A DNA stretch of 48,401 nucleotides from Nitratifractor sp. (GTDB lineage: Bacteria > Campylobacterota > Campylobacteria > Campylobacterales > Sulfurovaceae), in NCBI GenBank assembly GCA_015488535.1, contig WFNP01000028.1:1-48401 (forward strand). The letters are read 5' to 3'. Of this stretch, positions 1 through 16,703 are shown piece after piece. The position numbers and the translations under genes are program-made. The stretch's first letter is position 1, and each line of letters opens with the position of its first letter. Below the pieces are notes generated by a model, which was given only the letters and a program-made list of their open reading frames with translations, made no database searches and was not told the DNA's origin.

Positions 1-6
1 AGTTTA

Positions 7-345
7 TTATATTTTTTCAACTTTATCAATTGTAATATCAGATTTGATATTTCCTGTATTTATTGTGCTTATAGGTTCAAACATCATAACTAAAACTTCA
101 TCTTTTGCTACAGGTTTATGTTCTATTCCTTTTGGGATTATGAAAAATTAATTCTCTTTTAGCTTTATTGTTAGCTCTCCTTTGACAACAAAGAACATTT
201 CATCTTCATTGTCATGATGATGCCATATAAATTCACCCTTTAATTTTGCTATTTTCACCGCTTGGTTATTAAGCTCACCAATTAATCTTGGCGACCAATA
301 CTCATTTATTAAGTCAAATTTTTCTGATAAATTTACTGCTTCCAT
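7..345 (-). pseudogene. Cupin-domain protein gene interrupted by an in-frame stop
   Basis: A small single-domain cupin of about 112 codons. The first 65 residues carry the cupin metal-site motif WHHHDNEDEMF and the following strand VVKGELTIKL. The frame then meets TAA at 148-150 and continues, still in frame, with FFIIPKGIEHKPVAKDEVL, the second cupin motif, to a stop at 7-9. Homologous small cupins usually have some more residues between the KL strand and the FFI(V)PKG motif, so a short deletion may accompany the stop. The start at 345 has the ribosome binding site AAAGGAGC. The cupin identity is well supported; the gene is probably inactive, although a sequencing error or a split protein cannot be excluded. 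Confidence 0.75.
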
Positions 346-399
346 TTTTTATTGCTCCTTTAGTATAACTGGGGGCGGGTGCGAAGCAGCGGACAACAA

Positions 400-452
400 G
401 CGGGTGTTCAACCCGCCTCCCGTTGTCTCGGTCGCGAAGCGTCCGAGACAAC
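400..452. repeat. Pair of GC-rich perfect hairpins
   Basis: GCGGGT (400-405) pairs with ACCCGC (411-416) around a 5-base loop. GTTGTCTCGG (422-431) pairs with CCGAGACAAC (443-452) around TCGCGAAGCGT. A near copy of the second element's core, TCGGTYGCGAAGCGTCCGA, lies in inverse orientation near 47724-47742. The hairpins are read directly from the sequence; a role as terminator or small dispersed palindromic element is inference. Confidence 0.6.
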
Positions 453-753
453 TATTTATTCATGGAACATAATAGCGAAGTTAGCCTGATATTCTCCAAG
501 TGAAGGAACATTTAAAATGTCCTGTTATTTGTAAAAAATATAGCAAAGTAGCACTTTCTTAACTGATTTGAATACTTTTTCGTATAATATAATTATTACT
601 TATATCCTTTTTAGTAGCTATATAGCTTTTAACGGAACAAAAATGTTCTTTGATTTGTAAAATTCAGGCAATAATAGACATTTTGTTAAATTTTGTCCGT
701 TTAATGATGGAGTGAATATAATCAAAAGATGTATCATACATAGAGTAAATTGC

Positions 754-780
754 TAAACAGGTAGACAATCCACCTGTTTA
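754..780 (-). terminator. Probable terminator of the cyclophilin gene
   Basis: A 9-bp perfect inverted repeat, TAAACAGGT (754-762) and ACCTGTTTA (772-780), lies 10 bases beyond the cyclophilin stop. There is no clear U tract on the minus strand, so factor-independent termination is uncertain. Confidence 0.4.
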
Positions 781-790
781 CAAAGCACTA

Positions 791-1309
791 TCAATCAGTG
801 CTTTCTACTACCTCAATAGACTCTATATCATCATTTTGCTTGATAGAATCTAGCACTCTGAAACTCTCGATATCATCCTCTTCGATTCCACCAAATACGG
901 TATGTACACCGTCAAGGTGAGGGGTATCTACAAATGTGATGAAAAACTGGCTTCCGCCGGTATCTTTGCCGGCGTGAGCCATGGACAAAGCACCTCTTTT
1001 GTGTTTGATACCATTGTCTGTTTCACACTTGATAACCCATCCCGGACCGCCGGTTCCGGCTAATGCCGGATTGTCTTTGGAGTGAGGGCAACCGCCCTGA
1101 GCCATAAATCCGGGAATGACTCTGTGAAACTTCAAACCGTCATAAAATCCGCTGTTTGCCAGTGCGGCAAAGTTCGCCACTGTATTTGGTGCATCTTTGG
1201 GGTATAGTTTGATTTTGATATCCCCTTTGTTTGTCTTGACTATCGCATATTGTAGTTTATTCAACTCCTCTTCAGGGAGGTTATACTCTTTGAGTTCTTT
1301 TCTAAACAT
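791..1309 (-). CDS. ppi: Peptidyl-prolyl cis-trans isomerase, cyclophilin type
   Basis: A cytoplasmic cyclophilin of 172 aa that catalyses cis-trans isomerisation of peptidyl-proline bonds. The cyclophilin fold is visible in order: [19 protein letters not shown] near the N-terminus, [19 protein letters not shown] containing the catalytic Arg and the FHR motif, GALSMAHAG and GSQFFITF lining the active site, and [10 protein letters not shown]. The reading frame opens earlier at 1348, but the codon at 1309 is preceded by AAAAAGGATAGAT, a good ribosome binding site, and starts a typical cyclophilin N-terminus. There is no signal peptide. Divergent from pyrF with about 66 bases between the two starts. 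Confidence 0.93.
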
Positions 1310-1375
1310 ATCTATCCTTTTTGCTGATTTGGATAGAATTATACCCAAGCAAAATAACTAAAAAGGAAACTCAGT

Positions 1376-2083
1376 ATGCAATTGGTTGTAGCATTGGATA
1401 TGCCAAGCAGTGCTCAAAACACGGCTTTGGCAGAAAAATTGGCAATTTATGACAATATATGGCTCAAGGTGGGATTTAGGACATATATCAGAGACGGCAG
1501 ATACTTTATAGATACTCTCAAGCAAATTAATCCCAATTTTAAAATATTTCTTGATTTGAAGCTTTATGATATCCCAAATACTATGGCTGATGCTGCCCAA
1601 GAGATAGCAACACTCGGTATAGATATGTTTAATATACATGCATCCGCAGGAGAGGTGGCTATGAGAGCGGTGATGGAGAGATTGAGTCAATTTGAGCAAA
1701 GACCTCTGGTATTTGCAGTAACTGCTTTGACATCATTTGATAATAACAGTTTTCAAAATATTTACGGCTCATCTATAGATGAAAAAGCTACAGAGTTTGC
1801 CAAGATGAGCTATAAAAACGGTCTTGACGGGGTAGTATGCAGTGCTTATGAGAGCCTGTCTATCAAGGAGGCTACAAGCGATGATTTTATGACTCTAAGT
1901 CCGGGTATAAGACCCTTTGCCGAAGCTTCAAATGACCAACAAAGAGTAGCAGACTTGAAATTTGCCTGTGCTCAAAAGGTGGATTTCCCGGTAGTAGGCA
2001 GACCGATATACAAAGATGAAAAACCGGATGAAAAGGTCAAAATGATTTTGGATGAAATAGAGAGAGTGTGCAAAGTTTTATAA
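1376..2083 (+). CDS. pyrF: Orotidine 5'-phosphate decarboxylase
   Basis: Converts OMP to UMP, the last step of de novo pyrimidine synthesis. The 235-aa length is normal for bacterial PyrF. Visible family signatures are VVALDMP at the N-terminus, the catalytic FLDLKLYDIPNT (Asp-Lys-Asp charge network), FNIHASAG, LSPGIRP and the phosphate-binding end VVGRPIY. The ribosome binding site AAAAAGGAAACTCAGT precedes the ATG. The next gene starts 10 bases after the stop and could be cotranscribed although its function looks unrelated. Confidence 0.96.
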   Translation: MQLVVALDMPSSAQNTALAEKLAIYDNIWLKVGFRTYIRDGRYFIDTLKQINPNFKIFLDLKLYDIPNTMADAAQEIATLGIDMFNIHASAGEVAMRAVMERLSQFEQRPLVFAVTALTSFDNNSFQNIYGSSIDEKATEFAKMSYKNGLDGVVCSAYESLSIKEATSDDFMTLSPGIRPFAEASNDQQRVADLKFACAQKVDFPVVGRPIYKDEKPDEKVKMILDEIERVCKVL

Positions 2084-2093
2084 GGGAGGATAT

Positions 2094-2903
2094 ATGTTTG
2101 ACACACAAAATAGAGTGAGTGAAAGCACTCTAAGAGAGCTGACTAATATGATACAAGCCTCGGCAGGGTTTATATGGAGAGAGTTTGAATTTTTTGTAAG
2201 AAGAGCAATACTGCCATCTTCGGTATTTTTTATTTTACTTTTTATTGTAGATAATCTATATAATGATGGTAAATTATTCAATCAACTATATAAAATTTTT
2301 AATTCTCACTCATCATCACTCTTTATTTTCTTTTCTGTTTTGATAATTTTACTTAGCACCAATTATATATTGAAATTGTTATCTCAAATACTTTTTGACA
2401 ATTTTTTGAAAGTAGATTTTACACCGATTGTAACAATTTTACCTCATCAGAAAAAAGAGAAAAAGGATTTTTTAAAGTTGAGGAGCAAGGTTATAGAGAA
2501 ATTGAAAACCAATAATCCACTATTTGAAGATTTAAACTATAATGATCATATACTTTATCAAATATTGGGCAAACTTCTTGATAAACAACTTACAGATAAA
2601 TATGCTACTGATACAAAAAGATACGCAACAGATGCAAAAGAGGGCGGTGTTATTATCGTATCTATCATCGCTATATTGATATGGTATAGTATGCTTCAAT
2701 ATGATACACTAAAAGATGAGTGTTGTTTGGGAGGAGTGCCTATAGCAATCACTCTTTTATGGTTGATTGGTTTGTGCTATGTGAGAGGCAAATATCGCTC
2801 AAGAGCCTATAGGCTCTATATCAATTATCTACTAATGGATAAAAATGAAAATCAATCAAACACAGAGATAGAGCAGAATCAATCTGCTTTTAATGTAGGC
2901 TAA
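2094..2903 (+). CDS. Four-helix membrane protein of unknown function
   Basis: A 269-aa protein I do not recognise. It has a hydrophilic amphipathic N-terminus, two membrane segments (about residues 39-56 and 72-97), a charged cytoplasmic-looking stretch with the near-repeat YATDTKRYATDAK, then two more membrane segments (about residues 186-202 and 215-232) and a polar tail. It begins only 10 bases after pyrF with a strong GGGAGGATAT ribosome binding site, and its last 14 bases overlap the 3' end of the convergent ATPase-FGE gene. Its place beside a putative anti-phage island suggests a membrane accessory or effector, as membrane proteins accompany some RADAR loci, but no homology is visible to me. 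Confidence 0.75.
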   Translation: MFDTQNRVSESTLRELTNMIQASAGFIWREFEFFVRRAILPSSVFFILLFIVDNLYNDGKLFNQLYKIFNSHSSSLFIFFSVLIILLSTNYILKLLSQILFDNFLKVDFTPIVTILPHQKKEKKDFLKLRSKVIEKLKTNNPLFEDLNYNDHILYQILGKLLDKQLTDKYATDTKRYATDAKEGGVIIVSIIAILIWYSMLQYDTLKDECCLGGVPIAITLLWLIGLCYVRGKYRSRAYRLYINYLLMDKNENQSNTEIEQNQSAFNVG

Positions 2904-5010
2904 ATCCTTTTGGCTCTTTCACCAAACGAAAGCCTACATTATTGTAGCCTCTGTTTCTATTTGCAACCCCACGCACACTGGTATATGTATCATCAGCATA
3001 GCTGTCAAAGGCTCCTCCTTTGACGACTTTATTATCAGAGCTGTCATTGGAGCCGTCACTACTGCACCACTCCCATACATTGCCATATAGATCATATATT
3101 CCATACATATTTGGCTCCTTGGTTGCTACGGGATGTGTCCTGCCTTCACTATTTTTGATATACCATGCATAGTATCTGAGTTGGTTTTCATCATCACCGA
3201 AAAACCACTTTTTATCCACGCTTCCGCATATATGATTCCACTCTTCTTCAGTTGGGAGGCGATATTTTTCATTGGTTCTCTCAGATAGCCACTCTGCATA
3301 GGATACTGCATCTTCCCAACTGATATTAATTACAGGTCGCTCTCCTCTGCCCCACCCTTCATCAAATGGCGGTTCAATGCCGTTATTATCACAATAAAAA
3401 TCATATTCACTAAATGTTACCAATTTATCAGCGACTTCTATACTCATCCCCGGCACTTTGATTGTATTGGGTATATTAATCGAACAATCTATCTGCAAAT
3501 CATACCCTACTATTATATTCCTGTCATAGGTATATGGATTCAAATGTTTATCCTCACGATATGCTTCTATGATTTCACTCAGTGATGGATGGATAAAATA
3601 TCTGGCAGATTTAGGAAGTGTATGTCTTTTGCCGTATGAGGGTTGATATCCTGCCGATCTAAATTTGATTAAGCACTCATTATTAAGTGTATTTACATAC
3701 TCTATACCAAGCAATCCGTAATCATGCAGGGTGCAAAATATATGCTCATCTTCACACTGACTACAGATTCCATCTTTTTTATTATTATATGCACAGCATA
3801 CTCTTTTGGTATCTTCGGGATAGAGAATATTTTTCTCTATCAATCTGTATGTCTTTTCAAAATCTATATATATAAACTTAGAGATCTCTTTGATATACTG
3901 CTCACCATTCTCTTTTGCCATTTGATTAATTGCAATTCGAATAGTATTTTCATCTCTTTGCGGAGGGTCTATCTGAGATATGGCTCTACCCATTCTCATC
4001 AAATCTCTCGGTCTGCCAAGCGTATGACGATATACATATGAGAAGAGCTCCTCTTCCTGATTTTGAATCAAAAAACGGTTTGTTATATCTTTAAAGCCGA
4101 TAAAGGCTTCCATATAATCTTGAGTTGTATTTGCATAATGTATTAAATAAGGTATTTTCAATCTATCTTTTTTTTCCAATTTGATATTGTTTATAAATAT
4201 TTGCTCCAAATCTTTGCGTGTATATTTAAGCTCTACTATAAAATCTCTATACTGAGCATATAAGATATCATCATCTTTAAGTTTGTCCAAAGCCTTTTTT
4301 CTAATCGTGGCATATATATGGATATGACTATGCTGAGATGTAAATTTCCACACAGCTCTAAGCAGTGCTATTTGGGCACTATACCATATATCCTCATCAT
4401 ATATATATCCTGTAGTATCATAAAACTCATCTACATTATCTATAAATATATAAAACGGCTCAAGAGAGTTTCTTAGGGTGATTTCAAACTGTTTGATATA
4501 GTCATGGCTTCTTATATCTCTAAATAAAGAGTAGTTATCAAGTAGCATTATATAGATATCCTGGACTACCGGATAATCTATTTTAGATGGAAAAAGTTCT
4601 TTTGGATAGTTGATAGATTTACTGTTTACAATCTTATTAAAAAGATTTTCACTGTTTCTAATAATTGTAATAATAAAGCTATATCGCCACAGTAACTCAT
4701 GCTCATCTGTATCATTAAATTTAGAATATACTTCCATACTTAAAGAAGGAGTTTGCATAGAGCCTATTCTATCAACCAACTCATTTTTGGGTATAAATAC
4801 TGCTCCTGTTTTACTCTCTCTGATAGAGATACTCTTTAGTTTGAGCAGATATGTCTTGCCAAATCCTTTGGTGGCACAGATAAATCTTTTGCGGTCATCT
4901 TCCAAAAACTCTTTTACTTTACTGTTGGTATGTAGTGTGCCTTGCGGATTAGAGCTGTTTTTTGTGATATTGGCAGCATCGGCTATCCATGCTTCTCTCT
5001 CTCTACCCAT
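2890..5010 (-). CDS. P-loop ATPase fused to an FGE/C-type-lectin-like domain
   Basis: A 706-aa two-part protein. The N-terminal half is a P-loop NTPase: Walker A-like ATKGFGKT (residues 46-53), Walker B IFIDNVDE (188-195), and HTLGRPRDLMRMGRAI (329-344), whose RPRD motif resembles Sll1717-type P-loop ATPases. A cysteine cluster (C405, C406, C416, C419, C426) may bind zinc. Residues about 518-697 form an FGE-sulfatase (SUMF1-like) domain: NISWEDAVSYAEWLS, YRLPTEEEW, YDLYGNVWEW, KGGAF, NNVGFR. Formylglycine-generating enzymes have an active cysteine pair between the RGGSF and GFR motifs; here that segment has no cysteine, so this domain probably binds a ligand rather than oxidises one. FGE/C-type-lectin folds fused to signalling NTPases are known from bacterial conflict systems. 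Divergent from the RADAR-like operon with 289 bases between. Confidence 0.85.
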   Translation of the reverse strand: MGREREAWIADAANITKNSSNPQGTLHTNSKVKEFLEDDRKRFICATKGFGKTYLLKLKSISIRESKTGAVFIPKNELVDRIGSMQTPSLSMEVYSKFNDTDEHELLWRYSFIITIIRNSENLFNKIVNSKSINYPKELFPSKIDYPVVQDIYIMLLDNYSLFRDIRSHDYIKQFEITLRNSLEPFYIFIDNVDEFYDTTGYIYDEDIWYSAQIALLRAVWKFTSQHSHIHIYATIRKKALDKLKDDDILYAQYRDFIVELKYTRKDLEQIFINNIKLEKKDRLKIPYLIHYANTTQDYMEAFIGFKDITNRFLIQNQEEELFSYVYRHTLGRPRDLMRMGRAISQIDPPQRDENTIRIAINQMAKENGEQYIKEISKFIYIDFEKTYRLIEKNILYPEDTKRVCCAYNNKKDGICSQCEDEHIFCTLHDYGLLGIEYVNTLNNECLIKFRSAGYQPSYGKRHTLPKSARYFIHPSLSEIIEAYREDKHLNPYTYDRNIIVGYDLQIDCSINIPNTIKVPGMSIEVADKLVTFSEYDFYCDNNGIEPPFDEGWGRGERPVINISWEDAVSYAEWLSERTNEKYRLPTEEEWNHICGSVDKKWFFGDDENQLRYYAWYIKNSEGRTHPVATKEPNMYGIYDLYGNVWEWCSSDGSNDSSDNKVVKGGAFDSYADDTYTSVRGVANRNRGYNNVGFRLVKEPKGFSLH
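2892..2940. repeat. Inverted repeat spanning the convergent gene ends
   Basis: AATGTAGGCT (2892-2901) and AGCCTACATT (2931-2940) are perfect 10-bp complements around a 29-base loop. The left arm lies in the end of the membrane-protein gene, the right arm in the last FGE codons of the opposite gene. It could act as a bidirectional terminator; no U tract is present. Confidence 0.4.
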
Positions 5011-5094
5011 ATAAAGCTCCTCTTAAAATACTTATATTAACGCAAGTCTCGTTTAAGCCTAATCTTCTTAGAGAAGTAAATACTCTACTACATC

Positions 5095-5120
5095 GGGGGT
5101 GGGGCTAAAGCTTCACCCCC
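5095..5120. repeat. GC-rich hairpin
   Basis: GGGGGTG (5095-5101) pairs with CACCCCC (5114-5120), followed on the plus strand by an A run. It shares the 13-mer GTGGGGCTAAAGC with the hairpin at 13327-13342. Confidence 0.55.
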
Positions 5121-5140
5121 CCAAAAAAAGTAAATTGCAC

Positions 5141-5158
5141 TTAAACAAAGTTGTTTAA
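5141..5158. promoter_or_regulatory. Candidate operator palindrome
   Basis: Perfect 8-bp inverted repeat TTAAACAA / TTGTTTAA with a 2-base centre, midway between two divergent starts. Its symmetry and place suggest a dimeric regulator site; the regulator is unknown. Confidence 0.35.
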
Positions 5159-5299
5159 AGTTATATGCGTAACATTAGAGAGTAATATTTATCTCTTATC
5201 TGAGACTCGCATTATATTAAATAGTATTATATCGTATAATATCCTTTTTTTCATAAGATTATTCAAGCTATAATGCAACTGAAATCAAAAGGAGTAGAT

Positions 5300-7198
5300 A
5301 TGTCCAATAATAGCTCAATAACTATAGATATAAAAAGAATCGATCCTGAATCTGTGCAAAAATTCGGCACTGTTATTCAGCAAGAAGCCAAAGAGAGGCT
5401 CATGGAGATTTTAAAAAGTGACTTGAGCAAAAAGATAGAGCCTAATACTTCCATATACAAAAACAGACTGCACAATACTATATTTATCAACGGTAAAAGA
5501 GGTAGTGGTAAGACTCTGTTTCTTTTGAGTATAAAAAAAGAGTGCAAAAAAGTGAATGATTTGAAGCATAATTTATATTTTTTCCCTCCTATTGATCCTA
5601 CTCTTTTGCATACAAGTGAAAATTTTTTAACTATTATCATCGCACAGATTTTAAACAGAATAGAAGAGGAAAGAGTTGATGAAAAGCATAGAGATAAATT
5701 CTATAAAATCTTAAACGAATTGTCAGATGCTCTTGATGGTATCTTAAAAAGCAGTTACCAAAGCAGAGGCTCACTCGAAAATATCTCAAAAGACCAAACG
5801 AGTCTCAAACTTGAAGAGTATCTACACCGATTTTTTCGCCTGATTACAAAAATATTAAATAAAAAAAGACTTATTCTATTGATAGATGATGTAGATATGG
5901 CATTTGACAAAGGTTTCGATGTATTAGATATAGTGCGAAAATATCTATCCTCTCCATATATTATCCCTATCATTACAGGTGATTTGGAGCTGTATCAGAC
6001 CATCATAGAGAATAATTTCATCAAAAAAATTGACAAAACTCTACAAGAGGAGTATAGAGAAAAAAACAGAACTATCTCAAAGGATTATCTGGTCAAAGTG
6101 TTACCAGGTCACAGAAGAATTCCTCTAAAAAATCTCTATCAATTATCAAAAGATTATAGTATCAATTTCGTTTCTGATAAATATAGATACCGCATTGGTG
6201 CTTCAGATGAGTCTGACAATTTAGAAATTAAATACTTTAGAGATATTATATATGAGAGTGTAAAATCAAAAACAGCAACTAAAAAGCTTATAGAAAATCT
6301 CTTTTCAAATCCATTGAGAAATATAATACAATTTATTTATGGTGAGTATAGTCAGGGTAATGAGGATTTATCTTTGGGCAATAAAGATAAATATGAAGAA
6401 TTGGAGTATATGTATAATTTGGAATTTACAAACGGAGTATTTACCAATCAAACATATTTAGATGAAGGCAAAGCCCTGTTGGCAAAAAGCAATTATGACG
6501 AAGCTATCAAACATTTGAAAGAGAGTATCAAATTGGATAAAAATGCTGAAGCATTTTATTATTTGGGAAAAGGTTATATAGGAGCAAAAAATTACAAAGA
6601 GGCAATAAAATACTTCGAACAAGCTATTAAATACGGATTTAGAGAAGAGTCATATTTGGCTATAGCTAATATCCATATACAAAACGGTGATTACTCTCAA
6701 GCATTAGAATATTATAAAGGTATCATTTCATATATAGAGGATATAGAGGATGCACTATCATTATATAATATAGCTCTATCTTATGTGAATCTCGGAGATA
6801 GAAAAAACGCAAAAAAATATTATATGGATGCTATTAAATATGATAGAGAGTTTTACAAACCCTATATAGGTATAAGAGAGTTATATTTTTTAGACCATAT
6901 TAATGAAAAAGATATAGATGATTTCATCAGAGAGTTTGTTTTCAATCATCAAAACAGAGCAGTATTTGCACTATACTCTATGTATGATGTATTGGATACT
7001 CTTATAAAAGATACATCAAAATATGACAATGCTTTTGAGAGTTGGAAAGATAAGTATAAAGAGATAAAACCTATAGAGTGGAATTTTGACGCATTGGATA
7101 AATATTGTGAAGACAGTATAAAAAATGCGAATAAAAAGAGTCAAATGAAAGAGACTATAAAAATTTTCAAAGAATATACCGGCAATGATAAGAAATAG
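5300..7198 (+). CDS. KAP/AAA-type ATPase with TPR repeats, RdrA-like
   Basis: A 632-aa predicted cytoplasmic ATPase. Walker A is GKRGSGKT (residues 65-72), Walker B LILLIDDVD (about 191-199, D196/D197), with a likely sensor strand IPIITGD ending at D228. FFPPIDPT (about 94-101) and the spacing suit the KAP/AAA+ class seen in RdrA of RADAR. Residues about 383-525 form some four TPR-like helical pairs (for example YDEAIKHLKESIKLD and YKEAIKYFEQAIKYG), a protein-binding scaffold. I chose ATG 5300, preceded by AAAAGGAGTAGAT, over the upstream ATG at 5273. The deaminase-like gene overlaps its last 14 bases, so the two are almost certainly cotranslated. It is shorter than the roughly 900-aa RdrA proteins I know of, so it is a variant or a separate family. 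ATPase call firm, RADAR link inferred. Confidence 0.85.
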   Translation: MSNNSSITIDIKRIDPESVQKFGTVIQQEAKERLMEILKSDLSKKIEPNTSIYKNRLHNTIFINGKRGSGKTLFLLSIKKECKKVNDLKHNLYFFPPIDPTLLHTSENFLTIIIAQILNRIEEERVDEKHRDKFYKILNELSDALDGILKSSYQSRGSLENISKDQTSLKLEEYLHRFFRLITKILNKKRLILLIDDVDMAFDKGFDVLDIVRKYLSSPYIIPIITGDLELYQTIIENNFIKKIDKTLQEEYREKNRTISKDYLVKVLPGHRRIPLKNLYQLSKDYSINFVSDKYRYRIGASDESDNLEIKYFRDIIYESVKSKTATKKLIENLFSNPLRNIIQFIYGEYSQGNEDLSLGNKDKYEELEYMYNLEFTNGVFTNQTYLDEGKALLAKSNYDEAIKHLKESIKLDKNAEAFYYLGKGYIGAKNYKEAIKYFEQAIKYGFREESYLAIANIHIQNGDYSQALEYYKGIISYIEDIEDALSLYNIALSYVNLGDRKNAKKYYMDAIKYDREFYKPYIGIRELYFLDHINEKDIDDFIREFVFNHQNRAVFALYSMYDVLDTLIKDTSKYDNAFESWKDKYKEIKPIEWNFDALDKYCEDSIKNANKKSQMKETIKIFKEYTGNDKK

Positions 7199-9806
7199 AC
7201 TTACAGATATACCGCAGATATTACTTTTAAGAAGTGACAAGATTCTTTTTGCCACGATTGATAGCTTTTTGAAAGATATAGATTTTAATGACAGTTTTGA
7301 TGAGGTTTTTGACGGTATAAGAGATTTTTATCCCAACAACTATAGACTCGATGAGATGGAGTCGGCTCTTTCACAAGAGAGTATCAAACTAAGCGGGATA
7401 GATTCAGATTATGATTACAAATACTTTTACGGCAAAGATTACAATTTTACTTTTTTGGATGAGCTGTTTGATAGATTTTATGAGCAAAATGGAGTAAATA
7501 TACATGTCAAAGATACTCAGATAGAAGAGTATTTAGCCTTTATAAACAAAATATCTCCATTTTGTCTGGTCGGTTATTATCTATCCAAAGAGTATATCAA
7601 AGGCAATATCAATATATACAGTATCCTCTCATATGCAGATGCTTATACACCTCTTGCATTACATATAGACAAACTATCACCCTATGCAGAAAATCATCTA
7701 CATCTCAAAGGTGCAGGATATCTTGCATTCAATTTCCTCAATCTAATGAGCTATAAAACACCTGATATATTTTATAAAAAGACTTTTTTAAAAGAGCTAC
7801 CTCGTATCAATGAGTTTTCATATATCAACAATTACACTTTTTCGATAGGCCAAATAGTAGATATTTTGAAGTGGAGCCAAAAATATATTTTTTCTTATAT
7901 ATTAAGTGGAGATAATGAGTTATACCAAAATGGAAACGAATTAGAAAAGATAATCAAAATAAATAAAAATGTCACTTCTCACAAGGGTTTCAATCTTGAA
8001 CACTTCACTCAATTGATTAAAATTATGCCTTTGGGATACAAAGATGATATCCAAAAGCTATTTTATGAAATGGTGAAATATTATGAAAAAGATGAATACA
8101 ACAGAGCTTGTCTTATAGAGTCTATTATTATATTTTATCTGCATGAAACAAGTAACAATATATCACTAAAGAGAGTAATAAAAATTTTTATTCATACACT
8201 AAATATTTTAAGAACATATATGACTATGTCACAAAATTTGGGATTGGCTCATTTTAGTGAATATAACAGATCTCCCATAAGACAGATAGAAAAAAAAGAT
8301 ACATGCAACAGTGTCTCTAGTATCATTAAAAGTGGAACGACTCACCTAAATGCAAAGATAGGTATTTTAAACAGTGCCAATGAGATAGCCCAAAGAGTAG
8401 AGGAGTTTATAGATATTTTCGAGACTAAAATCTCAAAAGATGGAAAGTTGAAATTCAACTTCACCCTATCTGCTATAAAAGGCAGAGAAGAGGATATATC
8501 AGATAGATATCTAAACATTCTCAAACCAAGATTTTATCACAAACGGCTCTCTCTCAAAACCCAGACATTAGCTTTGGATAAATTTTTAAGAAGTATCCAA
8601 TATAAAATAATAAACCGCCATAAAATGAAACTAAAATATCATTTCCAAGACGCCTATATTAATAAAAAGCAAGATTTGAATATGTTTTATGACTTGAGTC
8701 GTTATATAGTAGCTATTGACGCTGTAGGTAAAGAGACACATACTCCACCTGAAGTATTTGCACCATATTTTCGTTATCTTAGAAATCCGCCTAGAATATT
8801 AAAAGATCATATCTATCCGTTTTATACAAAAATACCTCACCATCCAAATCTAATATTCAGTGTTCATGCAGGAGAGGATTTTAATCACATCGTTACAGGT
8901 ATGAGAAGAGTGGATGAAGTTCTCATATACTATGATATGAAACAAAGAGATAGATTGGGACATCTTCTAAGCTTAGGCATTACTCCTCAAAAATGGATTG
9001 AAAATACTCAACAGATAATTGTAACCAAGGGTGACTACCTTGATGATTTGGTTTGGCTTGTGATGAAACTAAAAGAGCTTCCAAGTGTAAATACAAATAT
9101 ATATAAATTTATCCATCTATATACAGATAGAATATGGGAGCTATTTAGAGAGATATACTCCAACTATAAATACAAACAGCCAAAATTAAAAGATCTGTAT
9201 GATGCATGGTTATACCGTAAAAATTGCCCTATCAACTACTTTAGAAGAGAAAGAGGTGAATATCTCATAAGTGAATATGACAAAAGAGTTTTGGATAAAA
9301 AGCCATCTAAAATTGTCCATAGGCTTTTTGAGCTATATCACACAGATGGAGCAGTCAGAAAAAAATATAATGAGCAATACAAATTTTTAAGCAGAGAGAT
9401 ACCAGATGATGAATTAGAAGTTTGGGAGATGGTGCAAGATCATCTAATAAACGATATTGGCAAAAGGGGTATAATTGTAGAAACTAACCCATCTTCTAAT
9501 CTGTTTATTTCCCGTATGAGGAGTTATACAGATCATCCGATATTTCGCTTCAATCCGCCAAAAGAGAAATATCTGCAAAAAGGTGAGTGTTTCAATAAAT
9601 ACGGTATCAGAGAGGGAAATATAGCTGTTACTATAAATAGTGATGATCCATCTATTTTTGTAACATCACTGCAAAATGAGTATCGTGCCATTCGCTCTAT
9701 CCTAAAAGAGAGATATTCATGCACAGATAAAGAAGCAGAAAGATATATCGAAGATATCAGAAAATTTAGTATAAAAATTTTTGAAGAGTGCTATTATCAA
9801 ACTTAA
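7185..9806 (+). CDS. Adenosine deaminase-fold protein, RdrB-like
   Basis: An 873-aa protein with the full metal and catalytic set of the adenosine deaminase family: ENHLHLKGA (H171, H173), VHAGED (H561, E564), RDRLGH (H593), ETNPSSN (766-772) with a following DHP (783-785), and INSDDPS (D820, D821). In ordinary adenosine deaminase of about 350 aa the first and third histidine groups are some 200 residues apart; here they are about 390 apart, so a large insertion splits the barrel and about 160 residues precede it. Large, split deaminases coupled to an ATPase are the hallmark of RdrB of RADAR, which converts adenosine to inosine in RNA or nucleotides on infection. Start ATG overlaps the ATPase end; its own ribosome binding site is weak, suggesting translational coupling. 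Catalysis is likely; substrate unknown. Confidence 0.88.
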   Translation: MIRNRLTDIPQILLLRSDKILFATIDSFLKDIDFNDSFDEVFDGIRDFYPNNYRLDEMESALSQESIKLSGIDSDYDYKYFYGKDYNFTFLDELFDRFYEQNGVNIHVKDTQIEEYLAFINKISPFCLVGYYLSKEYIKGNINIYSILSYADAYTPLALHIDKLSPYAENHLHLKGAGYLAFNFLNLMSYKTPDIFYKKTFLKELPRINEFSYINNYTFSIGQIVDILKWSQKYIFSYILSGDNELYQNGNELEKIIKINKNVTSHKGFNLEHFTQLIKIMPLGYKDDIQKLFYEMVKYYEKDEYNRACLIESIIIFYLHETSNNISLKRVIKIFIHTLNILRTYMTMSQNLGLAHFSEYNRSPIRQIEKKDTCNSVSSIIKSGTTHLNAKIGILNSANEIAQRVEEFIDIFETKISKDGKLKFNFTLSAIKGREEDISDRYLNILKPRFYHKRLSLKTQTLALDKFLRSIQYKIINRHKMKLKYHFQDAYINKKQDLNMFYDLSRYIVAIDAVGKETHTPPEVFAPYFRYLRNPPRILKDHIYPFYTKIPHHPNLIFSVHAGEDFNHIVTGMRRVDEVLIYYDMKQRDRLGHLLSLGITPQKWIENTQQIIVTKGDYLDDLVWLVMKLKELPSVNTNIYKFIHLYTDRIWELFREIYSNYKYKQPKLKDLYDAWLYRKNCPINYFRRERGEYLISEYDKRVLDKKPSKIVHRLFELYHTDGAVRKKYNEQYKFLSREIPDDELEVWEMVQDHLINDIGKRGIIVETNPSSNLFISRMRSYTDHPIFRFNPPKEKYLQKGECFNKYGIREGNIAVTINSDDPSIFVTSLQNEYRAIRSILKERYSCTDKEAERYIEDIRKFSIKIFEECYYQT

Positions 9807-9808
9807 TG

Positions 9809-9837
9809 GGGAGGATAAAATCCTCTATTATCCTCCC
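9809..9837. terminator. Convergent terminator hairpin
   Basis: GGGAGGATAA (9809-9818) pairs perfectly with TTATCCTCCC (9828-9837) between the deaminase-like gene and livF. The right arm includes the livF stop codon. It probably serves both directions; neither side has a long U tract. Confidence 0.55.
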
Positions 9838-10520
9838 AAATACTTGGCTCTAACTTCATCATTACCTATAAGCTCTTCGCCTTTGCCCTCTAATGAAATT
9901 CTGCCGTTTTCCAATACATATCCATAATCGGCGATTTTTAAAGCCGCAAAAGCGTTTTGCTCTATCAAAAGCACAGGCATCCGTCTCTTTAATTCTGTAA
10001 TAATCTCAAACAGCTCTCCCACTATTTTGGGGGCAAGTCCGAGACTTGGCTCATCAAGCATCAACATTTTTGGCTCACTCATCAATGCTCTGGCAATTGC
10101 CAACATTTGCTGTTCTCCTCCACTGAGTGTCCCACCTCTTTGCTCTTTTTTAGATGAGAGTCGAGGGAATAGATTATACATTTCATCTCTTAGCTTCTCA
10201 AAATTTTCATCATTATTAAATGCACCCATTCGCAAATTTTCATCTACACTAAGATTTATAAATACTCTTCTACCCTCCGGCACTAATGCCAACCCCTCTT
10301 TTACAATTTTGTGAGTCTTGTGTTTGGTTATATCTTTACCATCAAAAAATACTTGACCGGATTTTTTGACCAAATTTACAATAGCATTTAGTGTAGATGT
10401 TTTACCTGCTCCATTTGAACCAATCAGGGTAACTATGCTATTTTTATCTACTTGCATATCTATACCCCTAACAGCTGATATCACCCCATAATAGACTTGT
10501 AAATTTTTTAATTTAAGCAT
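9828..10520 (-). CDS. livF: Branched-chain amino-acid ABC transporter ATPase LivF
   Basis: One of two ATPases that power the Liv importer. Visible are Walker A GSNGAGKT, signature LSGGEQQMLAIARAL, Walker B LMLDEPSLGLAP and the switch region LLIEQN, with the LivF-typical LVPEGRRVF. I place the start at 10520 (MLKLKNLQVYYG); it overlaps the end of livG by 8 bases, whereas the longer frame to 10559 adds an untypical N-terminus inside livG. Last gene of the livK-H-M-G-F cluster. Confidence 0.95.
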   Translation of the reverse strand: MLKLKNLQVYYGVISAVRGIDMQVDKNSIVTLIGSNGAGKTSTLNAIVNLVKKSGQVFFDGKDITKHKTHKIVKEGLALVPEGRRVFINLSVDENLRMGAFNNDENFEKLRDEMYNLFPRLSSKKEQRGGTLSGGEQQMLAIARALMSEPKMLMLDEPSLGLAPKIVGELFEIITELKRRMPVLLIEQNAFAALKIADYGYVLENGRISLEGKGEELIGNDEVRAKYLGG

Positions 10521-11289
10521 TTGTAAAATCCCCCAAATATGCAGATACAACCTTTTCATCTACTATTGCATCAGATGGCTTACCATCAAAAATCTTTTCA
10601 CCATAATCCAATACTGTTACTCTATCGCACATATTATTTACAAATTTCATATCATGCTCAATCAGTAACACTGTCAAATCATAATCTTTTTTGATTTTGT
10701 GGATAATATTGGATAGCTCCTCTGTCTCAATAGGGTTCATTCCAGCCGCCGGTTCATCAAGTAGTAATAGTTTAGGTTTTGTAGCCAATGCTCTTGCTAT
10801 CTCTACCTTTCGCTGATTGCCATAGCTGAGTGCCGTTGCTTCACTATCGGCAAATTTGGATATACCAAACTCTTCGAGTATCTCCATAGCCTCTTTTTTA
10901 ATTTGCTTTTCATATTTGTGATATCGTGGGAGTCTGAAAATAGCTTCAAAATATGTATAATTCGTGCGGTCGTGAAATCCGATTAATATGTTATCCAATA
11001 CACTCATACTCTTGAAGAGTCTGATATTTTGGAAAGTTCGGGCAATTCCTTTAAATACTATCTTATTGGGTTTTGTGCCTGTGATATCTTCACCATCAAA
11101 TATCACCCTACCCTCTGTGGGCTTGTAATTGCCGGTAATGATATTAAATATCGTAGTCTTACCCGCTCCATTTGGACCAATAAGCCCATATATTTCACCC
11201 TTTTGGATAGAAAAGTTCAATCTATCTATGGCGGTAACTCCACCAAATTTCATAGTAACATCATCAATTTTTAGTATAGGCTCATTCAC
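10513..11289 (-). CDS. livG: Branched-chain amino-acid ABC transporter ATPase LivG
   Basis: Second ATPase of the Liv importer, 258 aa. Walker A GPNGAGKT, LivG-typical GIARTFQNIRLF, signature LSYGNQRKVEIARAL and Walker B LLLDEPAAGMNP followed by LLIEHDM are all present. The start is GTG at 11289, sharing a GTGA overlap with the livM stop, so translation is coupled. Pairs with LivF at the membrane under LivH-LivM. Confidence 0.95.
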   Translation of the reverse strand: MNEPILKIDDVTMKFGGVTAIDRLNFSIQKGEIYGLIGPNGAGKTTIFNIITGNYKPTEGRVIFDGEDITGTKPNKIVFKGIARTFQNIRLFKSMSVLDNILIGFHDRTNYTYFEAIFRLPRYHKYEKQIKKEAMEILEEFGISKFADSEATALSYGNQRKVEIARALATKPKLLLLDEPAAGMNPIETEELSNIIHKIKKDYDLTVLLIEHDMKFVNNMCDRVTVLDYGEKIFDGKPSDAIVDEKVVSAYLGDFTNA

Positions 11290-12314
11290 GATTTAAACCT
11301 TTGTTTGATTTTTGCAAATAGTTCCGGAAACTCTCTGTCTCCAAAGAGTCCTTTTCGAGCAAATAGCATCATAATAATTAAGAGTATTGCAAATATTACC
11401 ATTCTCATACCCGGATGGGCTCCTGTATGCATCCCAAAAATAACCATATCATCATCTAAAAATCTCAACCACTCCATACTACCCATTACCAAAATAGTAG
11501 CCAGTAGTGTGCCACTCATACTACCAAGCCCTCCAAGCACTATGATAATCAACAGTTGGAAGGTGAGTAAAAATGTAAATTGATCCGGTGAAATAGTAGT
11601 AAGAAATGATGCTAATAATCCTCCGCCGACTCCTTCAAAAAATGCACTTGTCATAAATGCTGTTGTTTTAATGGCAAATGTATTTATACCCATAGCCAAA
11701 GCAGCATCTTCATCATCTCTAACCGCTTTCATAGCTCTACCAAATTTTGAATATACAATATGAAGCATTACTATAAATGTAATTAAAGCTACTGACCCAA
11801 TCCATAAAAAGTTGGAATTATCTGGAATATCATTTAATCCCATTGCCCCATTTGTATATGCCGGATTATTCATAGCAAAAATTCTAATAATAAATCCAAA
11901 TCCAAGTGTTACAATCGCCAAATAATCCCCTCTTACTCTAAATACCGGAAAAGAGAGTAGCAGAGCAATAAATGAAGCAGTAACTCCACCTATAATAATA
12001 GCCGGTAAAAATGAGCTATGCATCGCCAAAATCACAGGAGCAGGATCAACCAGTGCAAACATATCTGTTTTGGTATCTGCCGGTATTAAAAATAGAGCCG
12101 TCATATATGCACCAATAGCTACAAAGCCGTTTGGTTCCAGTGAAAATTGTCCGGTTACTCCATTAATAAGATTGTAACTGAGGGCTAATATTGCAAATAT
12201 TCCAATATTATTGAGGATACTAAGCAGATATGAATCAAAATGGCTGTGAGCATAGATAATAAATCCAAGTGTAGCAAGAATAAGCGCTATTTTTATAATT
12301 GTATTTTTCATCAT
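11286..12314 (-). CDS. livM: Branched-chain amino-acid ABC transporter permease LivM
   Basis: Inner-membrane permease of 342 aa with about ten hydrophobic segments. The family motifs NLINGVTGQFSLEPNGFVAIGAY and GALLASFLTTISPDQF-like region, plus the coupling helix AVRDDEDAALAMGI, identify LivM. Two adjacent ATG codons (12314 and 12311) follow GGAGTCG; the second has the better spacing. Lies 6 bases after livH and overlaps livG. Confidence 0.94.
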   Translation of the reverse strand: MMKNTIIKIALILATLGFIIYAHSHFDSYLLSILNNIGIFAILALSYNLINGVTGQFSLEPNGFVAIGAYMTALFLIPADTKTDMFALVDPAPVILAMHSSFLPAIIIGGVTASFIALLLSFPVFRVRGDYLAIVTLGFGFIIRIFAMNNPAYTNGAMGLNDIPDNSNFLWIGSVALITFIVMLHIVYSKFGRAMKAVRDDEDAALAMGINTFAIKTTAFMTSAFFEGVGGGLLASFLTTISPDQFTFLLTFQLLIIIVLGGLGSMSGTLLATILVMGSMEWLRFLDDDMVIFGMHTGAHPGMRMVIFAILLIIMMLFARKGLFGDREFPELFAKIKQRFKS

Positions 12315-12320
12315 CGACTC

Positions 12321-13214
12321 CTAAAACCTACTTCTTTCCAAATCTTCACCCATAATTCCAGTGGGTCTAAACAGAAGCACAAGAATTAAGAAAAAGAAAG
12401 CAAAGGCATCTTTATATCCGCCAAGCTCCGGAAAGAGTGCTACAACTAAAATCTCTGTAAATCCCAAAATAAAGCCACCAATTACGGCTCCGGTTACACT
12501 TCCAATTCCTCCAAGCACCGCAGCTGCAAATGCTTTGAGTCCCACAATAACCCCCATCAATGGGTCGATAGATGGGTAACTGATAGCATAAAACACCCCT
12601 CCAATAGCAGCAAGTGCAGAACCAAGAGCAAATACTATGGAGATAATCGAATCGGCATTTACTCCCATCAGTTTGACAGTGGGTATATCAAAAGCCAAAG
12701 CTCTGATAGCCATACCGTATTTTGTGCGATAAAGCACCCACAATACAGAGCCAAGAATCAATACGGTAATAACAGGAATGATAATAACTGTAACAGGCAG
12801 ATAGATATTACCAAGATGTAATACTTTGGTCAGATAATCAGGAGCAGAAAATGCCTTTGGCACTCCTCCAAATAGGACATTAAAGAGATTTTCCAAAAAG
12901 AAACTGATACCAATTGCAGTAATCAATAGAGATATTTTTGGAGCATCTCTTAGAGGCTTATAGGCAATTTTGTCTGTAAGCATACCTACAAGCACAGATA
13001 TAACTACTCCAAACAATACAGCCACACCAAATGGCATACCCATAGAGGTAGCCAAGTATGTCATAAATGCACCAACCATCATAATATCGCCATGTGCGAA
13101 GTTGATAAGTCTTAATACTCCATAAACCATAGTATATCCAATGGCAATCAAAGCATACATACTCCCCAAACTCGCACCATTTACCAACTGTTGCAAAAAT
13201 GTAGTGAAATCCAT
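12321..13214 (-). CDS. livH: Branched-chain amino-acid ABC transporter permease LivH
   Basis: Partner permease to LivM, 297 aa, hydrophobic throughout. Signature stretches are LGSMYALIAIGYTMVYG, INFAHGDIMMVGAF near the N-terminus, the coupling region RALAFDIPTVKLMGVN and GGIGSVTGAVIGGFILG. Separated from livK by 157 bases that hold a hairpin, so the binding protein may be made in excess over the membrane parts, as is usual for such importers. Confidence 0.94.
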   Translation of the reverse strand: MDFTTFLQQLVNGASLGSMYALIAIGYTMVYGVLRLINFAHGDIMMVGAFMTYLATSMGMPFGVAVLFGVVISVLVGMLTDKIAYKPLRDAPKISLLITAIGISFFLENLFNVLFGGVPKAFSAPDYLTKVLHLGNIYLPVTVIIIPVITVLILGSVLWVLYRTKYGMAIRALAFDIPTVKLMGVNADSIISIVFALGSALAAIGGVFYAISYPSIDPLMGVIVGLKAFAAAVLGGIGSVTGAVIGGFILGFTEILVVALFPELGGYKDAFAFFFLILVLLFRPTGIMGEDLERSRF

Positions 13215-13371
13215 TCACACGCCTTTTTGGTAGAGATTTTTATATAAATTTGTGTCGGAGAAGATTATAGCATAAAGAGAGTATATTGATTGTTTGTATA
13301 TGCAAAATTTTAGGCTTTTTATTATGTGGGGCTAAAGCCCCAGCCTCATATTTAGCAAATGCTATAATATA
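13215..13371 (-). terminator. livK-livH spacer with a GC hairpin
   Basis: Within this spacer TGGGGCT (13327-13333) pairs with AGCCCCA (13336-13342), a perfect 7-bp stem with a 2-base loop, 30 bases past the livK stop. It may attenuate transcription into livHMGF or protect the livK mRNA end. It shares the 13-mer GTGGGGCTAAAGC with the hairpin near 5100. Confidence 0.4.
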
Positions 13372-14496
13372 TTATGGATTTACAGTAGTTTTATATGTAA
13401 ATTTGCCATCTTTTACTTCATTTACAACAGCAGATTTTACAGCATTACCATTTTTGTCAATATTGATAACACCAGTAATTCCTTTGTAATCTTTTGTATT
13501 TCTTAGATTTGTATTTATACACTCTTTATCTGTTGGTGCTTTGCCCTCATCAATACACTTATTCATAGCATTTAAAATCATACCGTAAGCATCAGCTGCC
13601 AATGCACCCATGGAGTCTGCTGCTTTATTGTATTTTTTGTGGAATGCCTTTACATAAGCTTTGGCTTCTGGAGATGTTGCTGCTGCTTCGTTGAAGTGGT
13701 CTGTATACATAAAGCCCTCAGCTGCTTTTCCACCGATTTTTACAAGCTCAGGGAATCCTACACCGTCAGCACCGATAAATGGAGCTTTTACTCCCATAGC
13801 ACGAGCCTGTTTTACCATCAACGCAGCTTCTGGATAGTATCCGGTAAATGCAATAATATCTGGATTTGACTGCTTAATAGTAGCAACTTGTGCATTAAAA
13901 TCTTTATCACCTGAATTGATTAAAACAGTTTTTAAAATTTTTCCACCATTTTTAGTATATGCTTTTTTGAATGCTTTTGATAAGCCTACAGAGTAATCCT
14001 GCTTAGCATCAGTTACTACCACAGCTTTTTTCATACCGTTATCAAGAGCATATTTAGCCATTACCGCACCCTGGAACGGGTCGATAAAACAGGCTCTTGT
14101 TACATACTTCTTACCTTTTGTTACTCTTGGGTTTGTAGAAGCGTGTGTAATCATTGGAGTCTTTGCTCTTTCTGCAACCGGAGCCATAGCCATAGAGTTA
14201 CTTGAAGCGACCTCTCCCAAAATTACAGATACACCGTCTTTATCCAACAGTCTCTTTACTGCTGTGGCAGCTTCTACCTTGTCGCCTCTATCATCAAGCA
14301 CTACCAATTTGACATCATCACCGTTTTTCAATTTGTGATTCTGCTCATAAGCAATATCCAAACCGCCTTTACTTGTCTGACCAAATGCCGCAATAGGACC
14401 TGTCAAAGGCAAGACTACACCTATTTTAACCTCTTTTGCAAATGCAATACCGCTCATCAATGCAGCAGCTGCGATAAAACTCAAACTCTTTTTCAC
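13372..14496 (-). CDS. livK: Branched-chain amino-acid-type ABC substrate-binding protein
   Basis: Periplasmic binding protein of the Peripla_BP_6 family, 374 aa. The start is GTG at 14496, directly after AAGGAGATAGAA; it begins KKSLSFIAAAALMSGIAFA, a clean signal peptide ending AFA before KEVKIGVVLPLTGP, the typical mature N-terminus. GEVASSNSMAMAPVAE and the DAKQDYSVG segment fit ligand-binding lobes. First gene of the liv cluster. The exact ligand (Leu/Ile/Val or another amino acid, or urea or amides) cannot be told from sequence alone. Confidence 0.9.
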   Translation of the reverse strand: MKKSLSFIAAAALMSGIAFAKEVKIGVVLPLTGPIAAFGQTSKGGLDIAYEQNHKLKNGDDVKLVVLDDRGDKVEAATAVKRLLDKDGVSVILGEVASSNSMAMAPVAERAKTPMITHASTNPRVTKGKKYVTRACFIDPFQGAVMAKYALDNGMKKAVVVTDAKQDYSVGLSKAFKKAYTKNGGKILKTVLINSGDKDFNAQVATIKQSNPDIIAFTGYYPEAALMVKQARAMGVKAPFIGADGVGFPELVKIGGKAAEGFMYTDHFNEAAATSPEAKAYVKAFHKKYNKAADSMGALAADAYGMILNAMNKCIDEGKAPTDKECINTNLRNTKDYKGITGVINIDKNGNAVKSAVVNEVKDGKFTYKTTVNP

Positions 14497-14651
14497 TTCT
14501 ATCTCCTTAATGGATTTAATTTTCACAGATATGTATATTACCAATCAAGCACTTAAAGAAAGATAGTATTGATAAATTAGTGCAAATGATAACTAATATA
14601 CCAATTACCAACATTTGGATAAAATTTCACAATTTAACTCAAGGATATAAA

Positions 14652-16703
14652 ATGGGTCAAAAGACATTGATAGAGATAGGTGTAGAGGAGCTTCCTGCTA
14701 TACCGTTGCTTAAAATTATAAACAATATCGAAAAATCCTGGAAAAGTATTTTAGCAAGCAGAGGTTTTGAGAGTAGTTTTGATTTTGAATATACCCCAAG
14801 AAGATTGGTGCTGATACATGAAGATTTGCCCAAGAGTCAGCCAGATAGAGTCGAAGAGCTTGTGGGTCCTCCAGAGAGTGTGGCACTCAAAGAGGGTGAG
14901 CCGACCAAAGCCGGAGAGGGTTTTGCCAAAAAGTGCGGTGTTTCATTTGATGAACTTGGCAGAATAGACAAAGGTGGCAGAGTATGTCTCTATTTCAAAA
15001 AAGAGATCAAAGGCGAAGAGACTGCAAAACTCTTGCCGGATATGATAAAAGAGTGGATAGACTCTATGAACTTTGGCAAAATGATGAGATGGGGGGATAG
15101 AAAAGAGGAGTTTATACGCCCTGTCAGATGGCTACAGGTGAGAATGGGAGATAAATCTATAGATATGGAGCTGTTTGGAGTCAAAAGTGATACCAAAACA
15201 TACCTGCACAGAATGGTATCGTTTGAGCCTGTAGAGGTGCCAACTATTGACTCATTCAAAGATATACTTAGTGACGGCAAAGTGATACTCTCTGAAAACG
15301 AAAGAAGAGAGATGATAAATGCCCAAATTGATGAGATAGAAAAGGGTAGTGGCTTGAGTGTAGAAAGAGATGAAGAGCTTCTAAGTGAAGTAGTGGCAAT
15401 TACAGAATACCCAAAAGCGTTGATCGGCTCGTTTGATGAGGGATTTTTAGAGTTACCTCCGGAGGTGATTGTAACATCTATGAAAGAGCATCAGAGATAT
15501 TTTGCAGTATATACCAAAGAGAGTAGATTGGCAAACAGATTTATAGTGGTATCAAATGCTGTAACTAATGACTACTCCAAAGTAATATCAGGTAATGAAA
15601 GGGTATTAAGACCAAGACTCTCTGATGCACTCTTTTTCTATCACAATGATTTAAAAAGAGGACTCGTTACAGACGGATTGGAAAAAATCCAGTTTATCGA
15701 TGGATTGGGGACTCTTGCCGACAAAGTAAACAGAGAGAGAAATATAGCACTGAGACTGTCTGGTATATATATGGATAAGTTGGAGGCTGATACTCAAAAG
15801 AGTGCCATGGAGATAGAAGAGCTTATGGATAGAGCCGTATCTATCGCAAAAGCTGATTTGCTAAGTGAAATGGTATATGAATTTACAGAGCTTCAGGGCT
15901 TGATGGGATACTATTATGCCAAAGCATTGGGAGAAGATATCCTGGTAGCCGAAGCTATAAGAGACCAGTATAAACCTGTAGGAGAAGGAGCTTCTTTGCC
16001 GGAATCTCTCTTTTCAGCAATTTTGGCAATATCTGTCAAACTCGATACTCTGCTGGGACTCTTTAGTGTCGGCAAAATCCCAAGCGGCTCCAGAGACCCG
16101 TTTGCTCTGAGAAGAGCTGTAAACGGAATAGTCAGAACAGTAGTAGAGTATGATTTGGCATTTGATATAGAAAAAATTATAGAGTTGCTAAAAGATCAAT
16201 ATAATGAGTTTGATACAGACAAACTGGAGGATTTCATTATTGAAAGAATCTACAAAAGTATCAAAGCCAATCCGTCTGTAATAAAAGCTGTCTTGTCTTC
16301 AGGCGAAAGAGATATCACAGAAATATACAAAAAAGTAGATGCACTCAATAGTATTGTAGCTTCTGCTGAAGCAAAAGATATATTTACTACATTTAAAAGA
16401 GTTGCCAATATCTCCAATGATATAGATATAGAGGGTGATTTGAGTATAGATGAATCACTGCTTCTCGAAGATGAAGAGAAGAGTCTGTATGAAGCATTTA
16501 GTGCTGTAACTAAAAAAGAGTACAGTAACTATACAGAGAAACTAGAATCCCTTTTTGGATTGAAAGCTCATCTTGACAAGTTTTTTGATAATGTATTGGT
16601 AAATACCGAAGATGAAAAACTGAAAGAAAACAGAAGAAGACTAATAGCATCTATATATAAAGCATTTAGAGATATTGCCGATATAAAAGAGATTTCAATA
16701 TAG
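14652..16703 (+). CDS. glyS: Glycyl-tRNA synthetase beta subunit
   Basis: The 683-aa beta subunit of the bacterial alpha2beta2 GlyRS, which binds tRNA-Gly. Recognisable are LIEIGVEELPA at the N-terminus, FEYTPRRLVL, FGKMMRWGD.....FIRPVRW, LPPEVIVTSMKEHQRYF and the C-terminal DPFALRRA before the DALR/HD-type region. The frame opens at 14580, but ATG 14652 follows CAAGGATATAAA and gives the family's standard N-terminus. The alpha subunit gene glyQ is not in this window, so the two are unlinked here. Confidence 0.95.
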   Translation: MGQKTLIEIGVEELPAIPLLKIINNIEKSWKSILASRGFESSFDFEYTPRRLVLIHEDLPKSQPDRVEELVGPPESVALKEGEPTKAGEGFAKKCGVSFDELGRIDKGGRVCLYFKKEIKGEETAKLLPDMIKEWIDSMNFGKMMRWGDRKEEFIRPVRWLQVRMGDKSIDMELFGVKSDTKTYLHRMVSFEPVEVPTIDSFKDILSDGKVILSENERREMINAQIDEIEKGSGLSVERDEELLSEVVAITEYPKALIGSFDEGFLELPPEVIVTSMKEHQRYFAVYTKESRLANRFIVVSNAVTNDYSKVISGNERVLRPRLSDALFFYHNDLKRGLVTDGLEKIQFIDGLGTLADKVNRERNIALRLSGIYMDKLEADTQKSAMEIEELMDRAVSIAKADLLSEMVYEFTELQGLMGYYYAKALGEDILVAEAIRDQYKPVGEGASLPESLFSAILAISVKLDTLLGLFSVGKIPSGSRDPFALRRAVNGIVRTVVEYDLAFDIEKIIELLKDQYNEFDTDKLEDFIIERIYKSIKANPSVIKAVLSSGERDITEIYKKVDALNSIVASAEAKDIFTTFKRVANISNDIDIEGDLSIDESLLLEDEEKSLYEAFSAVTKKEYSNYTEKLESLFGLKAHLDKFFDNVLVNTEDEKLKENRRRLIASIYKAFRDIADIKEISI

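Follow-up and report, generated by a model that had tools for sequence, protein, structure and literature searches.

A Divergent RADAR Locus of Nitratifractor in Which RdrA Carries a TPR Array in Place of the C-Terminal Lobe

RADAR and Related Systems

The closest described systems are the RADAR systems of E. coli, Citrobacter rodentium, and Streptococcus suis (PDB 8fnt, 8fnu, 8fnv, 8fnw, 8hr7, 8hr8), in which an AAA+ ATPase, RdrA, and an adenosine deaminase, RdrB, are encoded in tandem. In the solved complex, the crown, the RdrB-binding part of RdrA, attaches heptamers of RdrA to a dodecamer of RdrB, and the active sites of both proteins are required (PMC9994260). Infection sets off a massive conversion of ATP and dATP to ITP and dITP by RADAR, and the C-terminus of RdrA has been proposed as a sensing domain (PMC9994260). 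The long helical lobe found there is a trait of the solved RdrAs and has no role in defining RADAR. Known RADAR subtypes also encode Csx27 or SLATT membrane proteins (PMC7699616). Cad1, a CARF-adenosine deaminase of type III CRISPR systems solved with bound ATP, likewise places an adenosine-deaminase core in a defence setting.

Here we describe a RADAR-type locus in a window of 48,401 nucleotides, one whole contig (C28) of a Nitratifractor genome. It shares with the solved systems the tandem rdrA-rdrB order, an AAA+ module with a crown, and an RdrB fold with its insertions and zinc and catalytic residues. It differs in its RdrA, which at 632 aa bears four TPRs and a tail instead of the helical lobe, and in that R162 of RdrA and E595-597 of RdrB are not conserved. 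Compared with Cad1, the deaminase is without a CARF domain, has RdrB-type insertions, and is partnered by an AAA+ ATPase.

The rdrA-rdrB Locus

The two genes lie on the + strand, rdrA at 5300-7198 and rdrB at 7185-9806, sharing 14 nt (7185-7198). The rdrA start at 5300 has AGGAG just 5′ of it and aligns with the starts of its relatives (MSNNSSI / MSDKESI), giving a protein of 632 aa that ends at the stop at 7198; an alternative in-frame ATG lies at 5273. The product can be divided into an AAA+ module with the crown (residues 1 to ~357), a linker, four TPRs (384-518), and a C-terminal tail (~520-632). The reading frames, the overlap, and the ATPase motifs were thus as a sequence-only reading of this DNA had described them. 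That reading had overlooked two upstream genes, one encoding a membrane protein of 269 aa (2094-2903, + strand) and the other, inverted, a P-loop ATPase with a C-terminal FGE-sulfatase domain (2890-5010, - strand). A promoter scan of the locus gave scores at best equal to those of shuffled sequences, no terminator-like site was found, and an Rfam search of positions 1-16000 returned zero matches.

An RdrB-Type Deaminase

The rdrB gene encodes a split adenosine deaminase of 873 aa, which scored 419 bits (E 6e-125) against the NCBIfam RdrB model, below its curated cut-off of 800, and at most 34 bits against the NCBIfam models of metabolic adenosine deaminases (ADAs; cut-off 426). It reaches the Pfam A_deaminase superfamily with 31.1 bits (cut-off 27), and a PADLOC profile search also assigns it to RdrB. 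Scores under the NCBIfam curated cut-offs are shared by the Campylobacterota relatives of both RADAR proteins. The AlphaFold model of the deaminase (mean pLDDT 82) matched the solved RdrB 8hr7_E with a Z-score of 35.1 over 702 residues, and ordinary ADAs and Cad1 with Z-scores of about 25 or less (about 24 for Cad1) over about 300-360 residues. Since the match to solved RdrB is far longer and stronger than that to ADAs, the shell-forming insertions of RdrB, absent from ADAs, appear in the model to have been kept.

The proposed deaminase ligands H171, H173, H561, E564, H593, D820, and D821 are all there; in an alignment of 21 RdrB sequences D821 is nearly invariant and the other six are fully so. 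By alignment, H152, H154, H498, H530, and E501, the zinc and catalytic residues of E. coli RdrB (PMC9994260), correspond to H171, H173, H561, H593, and E564 of the window protein. The glutamates of the three-fold interface, E595-E597, were not conserved in the alignment, where their region is variable and its alignment uncertain, and they characterise E. coli RdrB, not the whole family.

A quick PMSF tree of RdrB with SH-aLRT supports and an ADA outgroup placed the window protein with that of locus L031 (support 97), joined to this window branch the RdrB of L032 as its sister (100), and nested all three in a Campylobacterota clade (98). This clade joins the RADAR of an Aliivibrio plasmid, annotated as rdrA/rdrB, and that of a Salmonella plasmid, with the ADA outgroup distant. 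Membership in RADAR, one of the claims made from the sequence, is therefore borne out by profiles, predicted structures, and the tree, which agree that the window deaminase is a true RdrB, far from metabolic adenosine deaminase.

An RdrA With a Conserved AAA+ Module and Crown

The likeness of the window ATPase to other RdrAs is confined to its N-terminal part. The NCBIfam RdrA model matched residues 23-301 only, with 244 bits (curated cut-off 600), and the PADLOC RdrA model matched with an E-value of 7e-47. The predicted structure superposed on the solved RdrA 8hr8 with a Z-score of 26.2 and a deviation of 3.0 Å for 314 of the roughly 352 residues of the module, spanning residues 6 to 357, and structural alignments of this RdrA stop at residue 357 or 376-380. 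In an alignment of 20 RdrAs, G65, R67, G68, G70, and K71 of Walker A (GKRGSGKT, residues 65-72; 5492-5515) and D196 and D197 of Walker B (LLIDDVD, residues 193-199; 5876-5896) are invariant, and the positions of D228 and R340 are conserved; likeness to other RdrAs stops after R340.

The crown region is predicted to form helices spanning residues 109-185, and the models indicate that the insertion that contacts RdrB is present in the window RdrA. Charge swaps at the crown residues K150, E151, or R162 of E. coli RADAR were reported to harm defence (PMC9994260). These contacts are partly kept, as R131 and D132 are conservative counterparts of K150 and E151, and D143 stands at the position of R162.

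A TPR Array in Place of the C-Terminal Lobe

Beyond the AAA+ module, other RdrAs continue into a long helical lobe at the C-terminus, which is absent from both the sequence and the model of the window RdrA. Profiles and models instead place a TPR array there (residues 384-518; 6449-6853). What had been called TPR-like repeats are true TPRs: Pfam TPR_2 matched in four stretches (E 5e-19), and a repeat profile found four TPRs, each with an E-value of about 1e-11 to 1e-14. They are followed by a tail of about 110 aa, and the RdrA model is of low confidence after about residue 548.

For comparison, 47 RdrB-positive loci were drawn from a species-level genome collection and their RdrA partners were then read. 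Intact partners are mostly 756-1262 aa long, which agrees with the earlier remark that a 632-aa ATPase is shorter than known RdrAs. A sensitive repeat profile found no TPRs in about 40 other RdrAs except that of L032, in which a frameshift puts the TPRs and a related tail into the next reading frame. The close outgroup L033 keeps the usual lobe, with RdrA profile positions 3-717 of 742 aligned. L031, which has the closest relative of the window RdrB, could not be scored for TPRs because its contig starts at rdrB, and its rdrA was sought in the rest of that genome and not found. Because the one other locus with TPRs, L032, is by its RdrB the sister of the window branch, the replacement of the lobe by TPRs is a derived change within RADAR. 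The close outgroups keep the lobe and the window clade is nested in Campylobacterota RADAR, so the sequences are most simply explained by one exchange on the stem of the clade of the window, L031, and L032. The suggestion of a distinct RADAR branch thus holds, a TPR-bearing RdrA having been found in one other lineage only, and no paper describing such an RdrA turned up in the literature collection searched.

A second RdrA-like ATPase is encoded in the same genome (G000:C78:12714-14252; L149, L018; 125 bits against NCBIfam RdrA) and is truncated by the contig end; its visible part has no TPRs and resembles by eye the RdrAs of L043 and L047. A second rdrB was not found in this genome assembly.

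A different explanation for the missing lobe is that the window holds a degraded or inactive remnant of RADAR in a decaying locus. Decay does occur among the relatives. The rdrA of L032 (6187-8000), on a contig with a stated coverage of about 1131x, is frameshifted inside the first TPR, so that the sole confirmed TPR-bearing sibling has a broken rdrA as assembled, and the rdrB of L039 is interrupted by a stop. The window genes, against this, are whole and overlapping and retain every catalytic residue, and the tail past the TPRs is conserved with that of L032 above the level of shuffled sequences (score 99; shuffle maximum 77). We consider a remnant quite improbable.

Distribution and Evidence for Defence

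Among 399 genomes of the order, 15 had a match to a RADAR-type deaminase, and none of 12 congeners did. Such a patchy, accessory spread fits a defence role, and the assignment to defence, a putative one, draws on it together with homology. An association with defence across genomes, as the sequence-only reading had expected, is accordingly supported only weakly: the scattered occurrence speaks for it, whereas defence profiles detected few known defence genes among 20 immediate neighbours checked around related loci. RADAR was not found in viral contigs and phage records. One genome (G139) has three differing RADAR-type deaminase loci (C53, C36, C14).

The scarcity of defence neighbours, together with the metabolic genes near RADAR in the window (pyrF and liv transport), would suit a purine deaminase that is coupled to an ATPase, serves in housekeeping or stress, and has no antiviral function. 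That reading seems very improbable given a gene missing from every congener and present in so few genomes of the order, and an RdrB nested among those of RADAR. The liv operon is kept in ten congeners and pyrF adjoins it in none of the congener stretches taken, and therefore no clean empty site was obtained.

A Membrane Protein Linked to RADAR

The protein encoded at 2094-2903 has about four transmembrane segments by hydropathy and conserved motifs around NDYxLYQ and RYxxRxxRLYINYL. Relatives of its gene adjoin RADAR in seven other loci, where they overlap the rdrA start (L034, L035), lie just upstream of rdrA (L039), overlap the rdrB end (L031, L042), or are divergent from rdrA (L043, L047). 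Strong matches occurred in 4 of 399 genomes of the order, all among the 15 with a RADAR-type deaminase match, and in no RADAR-less genome of the order; the hypergeometric probability of this co-occurrence is 1.3e-6, for a profile itself built from RADAR-adjacent members. The protein probably works together with RdrA-RdrB. Although the encoding of a membrane protein with rdrAB recalls the Csx27 and SLATT subtypes, the window protein fits no Pfam SLATT model at E-values up to 10, had no convincing match to PADLOC models in the same range, and resembled no solved structure significantly; it may still be distant kin of Csx27 or SLATT.

Two overlapping fragments of the membrane gene lie just upstream of rdrA in another genome (G367:C11:120588-120809), probably a decayed copy. 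In Acidobacteriota RADAR, another small membrane protein overlaps the rdrA start (L053:826-1500, L054:2553-3218), with no detectable kinship to that of the window.

A Proposed Exchange of the Trigger Module

The locus is probably a divergent RADAR in which an RdrA-RdrB assembly would deaminate (d)ATP to (d)ITP when triggered by phage, its trigger module having been exchanged. The machinery of docking and catalysis is conserved here, and it is the proposed sensor that has been replaced. We therefore infer that the effector chemistry is unchanged and the trigger different; the deaminase activity and its substrate, the ring and shell assembly, sensing by the lobe or the TPRs, and the anti-phage function are all likewise inferred. 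Upon infection, the AAA+ ring of RdrA would dock by its crown on the RdrB shell and turn RdrB on, and the activated RdrB would convert ATP and dATP to ITP and dITP and so poison the nucleotide pool. Engine and effector would be retained, and the TPR array with its conserved tail would be the new receiver of the trigger, which might be a protein of the phage or a partner from the host held in the TPR groove; the RADAR-linked membrane protein is a probable partner.

The TPRs might instead serve assembly or anchoring, by holding RdrA rings in a stack or by binding to the membrane protein, with sensing left to the AAA+ ring or to RdrB. The lobe of S. suis RdrA makes a ring-stacking interface with its last helices (PMC9994260), and the membrane gene accompanies both the window and L031, as anchoring would have it. 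However, the membrane protein is also found beside TPR-less RdrAs (L034, L035, L039), and TPRs are therefore unnecessary for that link. An assembly or anchoring role is unlikely in our view, and both it and a decaying locus are less likely than an exchange of the sensor.

The proposed exchange of the sensor raises the wider idea, which we hold tentatively and at somewhat under an even chance, that RADAR has a modular build like that of NLR-type sensors, with the RdrA ring and RdrB constant and the C-terminal domain an exchangeable receptor; the TPR receptor would here serve a different phage or host signal, perhaps at the membrane via the four-TM protein. A natural RdrA with the ATPase and crown but an unrelated C-terminal module amounts to a ready-made domain-swap experiment on the role of the lobe, which would be dispensable if the window RdrA is active. 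TPRs are a well-understood peptide-binding fold that could be used as bait for the trigger, and the linked membrane protein offers an extra component for the study of RADAR.

The Inverted ATPase-FGE Gene

The gene at 2890-5010 separates the membrane gene from rdrA and lies on the opposite strand. Its product is Sll1717-like by profile, below the cut-off. No full-length relative was found beside other RADAR loci, and the gene is probably a passenger outside RADAR. Its FGE part recurs widely in the family, where the open frames that contain it range from about 185 to 880 aa, and looks like an exchangeable module. A diversity-generating element (DGR) at this gene was considered and rejected, as the genome holds no second copy of the 3′ end of the gene and the one reverse transcriptase detected (G000:C11:660-1223; L030) belongs to the defence-associated UG13a class (PADLOC RT_UG13a, 642 bits).
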